The notes under the pieces were generated by a model. The model saw only the letters and a list, made by a program, of their open reading frames with translations. It had not been told where the DNA came from and made no database searches. Source: a bacterium (GTDB lineage: Bacteria > Patescibacteriota > Saccharimonadia > Saccharimonadales > Saccharimonadaceae). From it: a stretch of DNA of 40,389 bases. This document shows positions 34,187 to 36,831 of this stretch, piece after piece; within the stretch, counting starts at the first letter, position 1, and every line of letters begins with the position of its first letter. The stretch is taken from the NCBI GenBank assembly GCA_021781475.1, contig JAJXWT010000007.1, positions 1-40,389 on the forward strand, read 5' to 3'. Made by a program: the position numbers and the translations under genes.

Positions 34187-34264
34187 AACAATATCATAGC
34201 AGAAGGTAAAACACTTCCGACATACACCAAGTAAAAACCACCGCGAGGATGGTTCTTTACTCAA

Positions 34265-34285
34265 TGCGGGTAAGGAGACTCTAAC
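34265..34285 (-). pseudogene. 3' fragment copy of tRNA-Gly(GCC)
   Basis: On the minus strand this equals the T-arm and 3' acceptor strand of the functional tRNA-Gly(GCC), GTTAGAGTCTCCTTACCCGC plus A, but is not followed by CCA. It lies about 120 bp past the tRNA 3' end. A short inverted part copy of the T-arm (GAGGCCAGGAG then TAGAG) occurs on the plus strand near 34350-34367. Confidence 0.75.
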
Positions 34286-34370
34286 CCTTGACCCGCCGGA
34301 GCGGGATCAATGGTTGCTCCTGGCGATTATTAATTTTGGAGGCCAGGAGCTAGAGAACTCAGCTCATACC

Positions 34371-34407
34371 AAGAAAAATAGCCCAGACAAGCTGGACTAC
34401 TTTTCTT
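34371..34407 (-). terminator. Terminator directly after tRNA-Gly(GCC)
   Basis: Starting at the encoded CCA, the minus strand folds into a 16-bp stem (AAGAAAAGTAGTCCAG with CTGGGCTATTTTTCTT, some G-U pairs) around CTTGT. The T-rich 3' arm fits an intrinsic terminator. Confidence 0.8.
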
Positions 34408-34482
34408 GGTGCGGGTAAGGAGACTCTAACTCCTGGCCTCTTCCTTGGCAAGGAAGCGCTCTAACAACTGAGCTATACCCGC
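34407..34482 (-). tRNA. tRNA-Gly (GCC), CCA encoded
   Basis: The cloverleaf is complete: acceptor GCGGGTA/TACCCGC, D-arm AGCTCAGTTGTTAGAGC, anticodon stem CTTCC/GGAAG with loop TTGCCAA (anticodon GCC), T-stem AGGAG/CTCCT, discriminator A and encoded CCA. It reads glycine codons GGC and GGT. A promoter at 34509-34538 drives it and a hairpin terminator follows. Partial copies of its 5' and 3' ends flank the gene. Confidence 0.96.
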
Positions 34483-34508
34483 ATATTTGAATTGTAAGGT
34501 GCTATCGG

Positions 34509-34538
34509 ATTATAACGTACGCTTCCTTGGCCTGGCAA
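34509..34538 (-). promoter_or_regulatory. Promoter of tRNA-Gly(GCC)
   Basis: TTGCCA and TATAAT on the minus strand are separated by 18 nt. Transcription would start about 20 nt before the tRNA. The same bases also form a CCTTGGCC/GGCAAGG hairpin. Confidence 0.7.
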
Positions 34539-34628
34539 GGATAGGTCACGTTCCGCGACCCCGCGCCTCAGTCAAATGAACCAGTTCATTTGTGAGAGCG
34601 CCTTGCGAACCTTCGCCGAAGGTTCTCA

Positions 34629-34652
34629 CTCTAACAACTGAGCTATACCCGC
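34629..34652 (-). pseudogene. 5' fragment copy of tRNA-Gly(GCC) with its own promoter
   Basis: The 24 nt equal the first 24 nt of tRNA-Gly(GCC), acceptor strand through D-arm, then diverge. A strong promoter (TTGTAA, 17 nt, TATACT; 34672-34700) lies 13-20 nt upstream, as expected of a tRNA gene. Between this copy and the functional tRNA lie about 146 nt that fold into several consecutive hairpins, including AAATGAAC/GTTCATTT and GGTCGCG/CGTGACC. Confidence 0.75.
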
Positions 34653-34671
34653 ATAGGTTTACACCCTAAAA

Positions 34672-34700
34672 AGTATACCGAAACCGGGGTCAAATTACAA
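34672..34700 (-). promoter_or_regulatory. Promoter in front of the tRNA-Gly 5' fragment
   Basis: TTGTAA and TATACT with a 17-nt spacer match the promoter of the other tRNA-Gly (37866-37895), suggesting the ancestral position of the tRNA-Gly gene start. Confidence 0.75.
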
Positions 34701-36529: not shown

Positions 36530-36605
36530 TGGTGGCGCCTCCCAGACTTGAACTGGGGACACAAGGCTCTTCAGGCCTCTGCTCTACCAACTGAGCTAAA
36601 GCGCC
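36530..36605 (-). tRNA. tRNA-Phe (GAA), CCA encoded
   Basis: Acceptor GGCGCTT/AGGCGCC, D-arm AGCTCAGTTGGTAGAGC, anticodon stem AGGC/GCCT with loop CTGAAGA (anticodon GAA), T-stem CCCAG/CTGGG, discriminator A and encoded CCA. It reads UUC and UUU. Its 5' head is repeated twice more upstream within a 110-bp tandem repeat. Confidence 0.95.
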
Positions 36606-36831
36606 ACAATAATGCTTAGTTTACACCGTAAGCCTGGTGGTTCACTGCGCTTGCAGAGGCAATCTCTGCTCTACGACTACCATTGCCGCTGCTACGCAGC
36701 TGGAGCTAAAGCGCCACAATAATGCTTAGTTTACACCGTAAGCCTGGTGGTTCACTGCGCTTGCAGAGGCAATCTCTGCTCTACGACTACCATTGCCGCT
36801 ACTACGCAGCTGGAGCTAAAGCGCCACAATA
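36601..36831. repeat. 110-bp tandem repeat containing the tRNA-Phe 5' head
   Basis: Units at 36601-36710 and 36711-36820 differ at one base (36691 versus 36801), followed by 11 nt of a third copy. On the minus strand each unit begins with GGCGCTTTAGCTC of tRNA-Phe, then about 28 foreign nt in place of the D-loop, then GTAGAGCAGAG again from the tRNA, then unrelated sequence. Nested pairings CTGCG/CGCAG and GGCAAT/ATTGCC predict a folded RNA. No protein is encoded. Confidence 0.85.

Follow-up and report, generated by a model that had tools for sequence, protein, structure and literature searches.

Engineered tRNA scaffolds carry a folded RNA domain in a tRNA loop, and the REP/REPIN palindromes with their RAYT transposases are short structured sequences, which are dispersed and persist vertically. 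The tRNA introns of Archaea, where split and permuted tRNAs are also described, are structured insertions in the loop of a tRNA sequence (PMC3218864, PMC4090602). Integrative elements in tRNA genes give a duplicated tRNA end beside an intact tRNA, with the junction in a tRNA loop (PMC9897764), and comparative surveys have recognised structured RNAs in intergenic DNA by their covariation (PMC2864571). In the present work the surroundings of a tRNA-Gly(GCC) gene were analysed in a window of 40,389 nucleotides, which is the whole stretch of DNA under study. With moderate confidence, the window is taken to hold one member of a tRNA-linked structured RNA module that works as RNA.

The features of the locus are summarized in Table 1. 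The original prediction had reported a 24-nt copy of the 5' end of the tRNA about 146 bp upstream and a 21-nt copy of its 3' end without CCA about 120 bp downstream. Both copies are real, and their positions and spacings were upheld. The upstream copy, which gains three leader nucleotides to reach 27 identical nt, lies 146 nt from the tRNA, and the downstream copy of 21 identical nt lies at about 121 nt. The longest match obtained with shuffled flanks was 10 nt (93 tRNAs, two related genomes), and therefore the copies are not due to chance.

Table 1. Positions of the features at the tRNA-Gly(GCC) locus and at the tRNA-Phe array of the window
Feature	Position	Strand	Basis
Intact tRNA-Gly(GCC)	34407..34482	-	ARAGORN and Rfam RF00005, 71.9 bits
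5' decoy: tRNA-Gly(GCC) nt 1-24 with 3 leader nt	34629..34655	-	27/27 identical
Element E, hairpins A, B and D	34544..34628	-	Model R1, 97 bits; fold; 34-pair consensus with covariation
Anticodon-arm remnant CCTTGCCAGGCCAAGGAAGCG, anticodon closed by fold-back	34520..34540	-	Complementary to tRNA nt 25-34
Inner promoter P2, TTGCCA-18-TATAAT	34509..34538	-	11/12 consensus
Outer promoter P1, TTGTAA-17-TATACT	34672..34700	-	9/12 consensus
Hairpin after tRNA-Gly, pairing from CCA to TGG	34368..34410	-	19-nt arms, 89% complementary
Antisense arm, complement of about tRNA nt 43-60	34339..34355	-	17 nt, 94% complementary to 34424-34440
First piece of the 3' decoy, approximately tRNA nt 46-54	34316..34324	-	Perfect complement of 34342-34350
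T-loop insert of the 3' decoy, other than E, with GATCCCGC/GCGGGTC hairpin	34286..34315	-	Sequence
3' decoy: tRNA nt 53-73, without CCA	34265..34285	-	21/21 identical
Hairpin after the 3' decoy, second terminator-like structure	34225..34264	-	Inverted repeat with A and T tracts
Pair of 110-nt units in tandem, ahead of tRNA-Phe (36530-36605)	36606..36827	-	Sequence

The spacers had been described as packed with perfect hairpins. Perfect pairing was found for GCTCCTGGC/GCCAGGAGC and AAATGAAC/GTTCATTT, whereas GGTCGCG/CGTGACC requires one G-U pair. The promoter proposed ahead of the 5' copy (P1) scores 9/12, and a better promoter-like site (P2, 11/12) stands inside the upstream spacer, directly ahead of the real tRNA, and its -35 box is provided by the anticodon-arm remnant. 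The first 85 nt of the upstream spacer, called element E, have a compact predicted fold of three hairpins (-38.6 kcal/mol, z -4.9) and are not random palindromes. On the 3' side of the tRNA-Gly gene the position that E holds at other loci is occupied by the non-E insert, so this side is an E-less decoy, and the tRNA-Phe array is a related tandem form. Each of its two 110-nt units is composed of tRNA-Phe nt 1-13, a short insert, nt 19-29 and then a fold-back. The view that the spacers are structured, with inserts in tRNA loops, and that both sides of tRNA-Gly and the Phe array belong to one general kind of arrangement is in accordance with these results. The observation behind the original prediction is thus confirmed, and its interpretation is partly supported.

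Two further properties of the locus were observed. The tRNA-Gly(GCC) has the D-loop AGTTGTTA, in which one G of G18-G19 is absent, and the T-loop TTAGAGT, in which A replaces C56; the usual G19-C56 elbow pair is therefore seemingly absent, and these oddities are common to the relatives seen. At many tRNA loci of the own genome the hairpin after the tRNA runs from CCA to TGG, as it does in the window, and because of this the CCA is base-paired inside a terminator-like hairpin.

The first stretch related to E met in the search of the own genome was near tRNA-His, in the T-loop of a partial tRNA-His copy. In sister genomes E occupies loops of additional partial tRNA copies, among them those of Gln, Glu, Lys and Gly. 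An initial consensus of 10 copies gave 34 pairs, 21 of them with double changes, and the covariance model R1 gathered 71 matches for the covariation test. Among these matches 96.5% of the pair cells were standard pairs. Double changes amounted to 455, whereas shuffles gave 120 and slid controls no more than 58; the result is somewhat favoured because the alignment was fitted to R1. The G-U wobble of the GGTCGCG/CGTGACC hairpin is conserved in 60 of 64 scorable copies. Since this pair is conserved and the G-T cells exceed the A-C cells (102 against 20, or 42 against 20 leaving out the wobble pair), folding of the E sense strand as RNA is indicated. Compensatory base changes on one strand, by which a structured RNA is recognised, were found in E, and the comparison argues for an RNA-type structure pairing on its sense strand. 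The upstream insert had been read as a short palindromic element; the pairing pattern is instead strand-specific, including the conserved G-U pair, and the insert is a member of a defined three-hairpin family. In Rfam no family matches E or its relative in Burkholderiales, and only tRNA matched meaningfully in the window and the E-bearing loci. A search of the open-access literature with few terms found no published description of such an element. The E module is provisionally regarded as undescribed, as judged against Rfam and open-access papers only.

The distribution of E was analysed with the same model. Within the genus, 9 of 13 genomes carry 4-10 copies each and the other four carry none; in the family 63 of 198 genomes gave matches, and of 245 genomes sampled over the class (Saccharibacteria) 58 did so. 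In one complete E-bearing genome (G001), 9 of the 10 copies have a tRNA on the same strand at a distance of 46-85 nt, whereas the zone within 160 nt makes up 1.6% of the genome. A scan with the exact 20-mer of helix D also matched Burkholderiales, namely Pandoraea, Herbaspirillum, Noviherbaspirillum, Herminiimonas, Pelomonas and Massilia, mostly 109-156 nt downstream of tRNA-Leu(CAG). The Burkholderiales element has a comparable A-B-D layout, and its end is formed by the T-arm of the tRNA itself, with CCA present in many copies. Model R2, made for this form, found up to nine copies per genome, and Noviherbaspirillum suwonense has six tandem units of about 155 bp after one tRNA-Leu(CAG). Homology of the two elements is likely, though not proved, on the basis of the hairpin order and of the 20-mer common to both, with which the search itself was made.

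The arrangement of E at tRNA genes was then defined from 129 distinct copies. Of these, 85 were verified: an intact tRNA is found no more than 140 nt away, and the end of that tRNA forms the outer flank of E. The verified modules stand on the 3' side of the tRNA in 55 cases and on the 5' side in 30. After E, exactly the last 20 nt of the tRNA (R57-A76) follow in 42 of the 55 modules on the 3' side, and 21 nt in three. On the 5' side E comes after tRNA nt 24 or 25 in 19 of 30 modules, and in some of the remaining ones E occupies the anticodon loop or the T-loop, or is present in both. E replaces about two loop nucleotides of the copied tRNA.

This geometry bears on the general idea of the original prediction, in which the modules would be attachment-site remnants of integrated phages or islands shrunk by deletion. 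Identity segments typically run from the T-loop to the CCA. Fragments of tRNAs left by integrating mobile elements are amply documented (PMC9897764), but at the verified loci just 6-104 nt separate the tRNA from E, more than a third of the modules (30/85) copy the 5' end rather than the 3' end, and E has the same orientation on both sides. Neither integrase nor cargo was found in these gaps between the tRNA and its displaced end, which leave no room for an integrase, and searches of phages, plasmids and viral contigs gave no E. Two pattern hits on viral contigs were chance matches in coding DNA, without E. A simple duplication of an attachment site also leaves unexplained the antisense stretch found on the tRNA side. 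Such an origin is held to be quite improbable.

The antisense stretch of the tRNA lies between E and the tRNA. In 3' modules it corresponds to about nt 43-70 and exceeds z of 3 in 39 of 55. In 5' modules the arm exceeds this value in 12 of 30 and is weak in 18; part of this signal may be sense copy, because the anticodon and T arms are near-palindromic. The T-stems of the decoys are paired at 251 of 275 positions with only three compensatory changes, and a self-paired acceptor stem in the 3' modules of Saccharibacteria found no support in the part of the loci scored. Some decoys are without acceptor end and CCA. About half of the tRNAs examined in the own genome have an own-end copy or an antisense stretch, a count that includes some shorter matches reflecting similarity to neighbouring tRNAs, and decoys with non-E inserts occur.

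Several variants of the arrangement were also seen. In the own genome, 3' decoys with non-E inserts stand at tRNA-Asn, tRNA-Arg(GCG), tRNA-Tyr and tRNA-Met (L010, L012, L019 and L025), and the inserts of the Tyr, Arg and Asn decoys look partly alike and may represent a second insert family. At tRNA-Phe of several genomes (L048, L108, L130, L175, L201) E and the tRNA are on opposite strands. Four to six copies of E occur within about 0.9-2.2 kb around tRNA-Pro and tRNA-Leu(TAG) at L119 and L165. Modules of the 3' type without an intact tRNA nearby were seen at L135, L136, L162, L190 and positions 136172-136258 of G001, and some of them retain a mutated remnant of a tRNA 3' end ahead of the first hairpin. 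At L104:1440-1640, E stands between the D-arm and the anticodon arm of a tRNA-Pro(GGG) and no intact copy was seen in the locus, which is possibly a deletion product or a truly interrupted tRNA.

The inheritance of E was examined by similarity between the copies. In 16 cases the nearest neighbour of an E copy stood in another genome at the same tRNA and on the same side (3.2 expected, p<0.0002), and in 3 cases it stood in the same genome (1.3 expected, p 0.18). The mean similarity score was 36.6 within genomes and 35.8 between them. A recently amplifying, MITE-like element was rejected, since similarity among the copies of one genome does not exceed that between genomes. At tRNA-Gly(GCC), E stands at the same point in 10 genomes, directly followed by CTTGCC(A)GGCCAAGGA with one variant, and part of this conservation may reflect the -35 box of the inner promoter. 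When the fit of the antisense arm to its own tRNA was set against its fit to the corresponding isoacceptor from other genomes, the own tRNA gave the better fit in 149 cases, the worse in 51 and an equal one in 52, and the decoy ends fitted their own tRNA better in 211 cases against 6; these comparisons share sequences, are not independent and carry no p value, and recent common formation could also produce such a fit. Own-end copies were found at 12 of 46 tRNAs in E-bearing G001 and at none of 47 in complete G002, the one E-free genome compared. The tRNAs that carry the module differ between related genomes, hence no single tRNA requires it. The view that short palindromic elements were recently inserted at integration sites and rebuilt tRNA ends is not supported: copies at the same tRNA in different genomes are the more alike, and the sequence evidence points to a conserved module, linked to tRNA and working at the RNA level, rather than to fresh insertions.

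The same data bear on a neutral origin, in which the modules would be by-products of replication template switching at tRNA hairpins and E would be tolerated in a dead copy. tRNA genes form hairpins, and the order of real half, antisense stretch and second sense copy is the outcome that two switches would give. A recurrent covarying insert with fixed insertion points is left unexplained by switching, as are the locus-wise conservation and the absence of decoys in E-free G002, and this origin is considered unlikely.

A partner acting in trans was searched for by comparing complete E-bearing G001 with complete E-free G002 and half of G009, and 51 candidates were obtained. YajQ/DUF520 was present in 9 of 9 E-bearing and 0 of 4 E-free genomes of the genus (G000-G012). 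It was rejected as a required partner, as 21 E-bearing genomes of the family are without it (odds ratio 3.5), and shared descent may explain the association. An HrpA-like helicase does not track E. A Y1 transposase, as a REP/RAYT system would require, was also discarded: PF01797 occurs in 3 of the 9 genus members with E, and the window's own genome lacks it.

A serious rival is that E is a slow, domesticated and non-autonomous mobile element, comparable to the REP sequences that RAYT mobilises, whose niche is the loops of tRNA genes, with the tRNA-end duplication and the fold-back arising at insertion and keeping the host tRNA intact. This is quite possible. E is found in D-, anticodon- and T-loops, and tRNA-targeting integrases also cross over in these loops. 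Relatives differ in occupancy, and genomes of the genus either carry E (9/13) or lack it entirely. Tandem copies (L062, L119, L165 and the Burkholderiales arrays), orphan copies without a nearby tRNA and the inverted copies at tRNA-Phe also suit a mobile element. It is opposed by copies that are no more alike within a genome than between genomes, by the absence of the element from the phage, plasmid and viral collections searched, and by the conserved wobble and strand-specific pairing, which indicate RNA. No matching transposase was found, and Y1_Tnp, present in 3 of the 13 genus members, does not follow the occurrence of E.

For the preferred reading of a module that works as RNA, the following mechanism is proposed. 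The module consists of a partial copy of the neighbouring tRNA (the decoy half), whose loop is interrupted by a folded RNA domain, here E, and of an antisense stretch of the tRNA placed between the decoy and the intact gene. Short transcripts, which start from P2 or end at the hairpin after the tRNA, would give normal tRNA. Long transcripts, from P1 or by read-through, would include the decoy; the antisense arm would then mask that half of the real tRNA which it matches, and the other real half would pair with the decoy half, the probable product being an E-bearing tRNA-like RNA instead of tRNA. The likeliest effect would be to set the yield of functional tRNA from the locus, to make a stable E-carrying RNA, or both. 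Promoter-like sites for both the short and the long transcript are present in the window. In predicted folds of long transcripts, pairing between the real half and the antisense arm covers 65% of positions in 3' modules, compared to 15% with a shuffled middle, and 46% compared to 18% in 5' modules. The decoy half enters the acceptor stem in the predicted folds of many loci. Since shuffling of the middle does not abolish this swap, specificity is confined to the antisense pairing, and the swap follows from the outer arrangement and the stability of E. A model acting in cis on the tRNA transcript does not account for tRNA-Phe, where E is on the opposite strand. Further points against the preferred reading are the variable occupancy among relatives, the loss of the acceptor end in some decoys, the few E copies far from any tRNA, the scarcity of compensatory changes in the decoy T-stems and the weak antisense arm of 18 of the 30 modules on the 5' side. 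The further proposal that each locus uses shared sequence to encode two tRNAs as alternatives, the normal one and a long isoform with an E-bearing decoy half, chosen by promoter or termination, is rather doubtful.

If two such tRNAs are made, E would be a new tRNA-borne RNA domain in Saccharibacteria and Burkholderiales, regulating tRNA supply or acting through a tRNA-like carrier. A structured RNA recurring in copied tRNA halves of tiny episymbionts and of Burkholderiales would represent a new way of building or controlling tRNA genes, and the module would account for odd tRNA fragments otherwise taken for integration scars. The Burkholderiales form offers testable loci in culturable Herbaspirillum and Noviherbaspirillum, and the covariance model for E is an aid for reading RNA-seq of Saccharibacteria.

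Like the domains of engineered tRNA scaffolds, E is carried in a tRNA loop, but it is natural and stands in a partial copy beside the real gene. It resembles the REP/REPIN sequences in being short, structured, dispersed and vertically persistent, and differs from them in its three hairpins with RNA-type covariation and in its tie to tRNA copies; the Y1 transposase does not track it. As with the RNAs of comparative surveys and of Rfam, E was recognised by covariation in intergenic DNA. In contrast to the Rfam families, E and its Burkholderiales relative have no Rfam match; the published Burkholderiales-1 motif, which has no Rfam entry, is outside that comparison. Compared with the archaeal tRNA introns, the module has an intact tRNA alongside in nearly every case, and E as a tRNA intron was rejected, since its removal would not restore a tRNA, loop nucleotides being missing at the junctions; L104, with no intact copy seen, is the exception. 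With the integrative elements the module shares the duplicated tRNA end beside an intact tRNA and the junction in a tRNA loop. It differs from them in having neither an element nor an integrase, and in its covarying RNA domain within the copied end, its antisense arm and its locus-wise inheritance.
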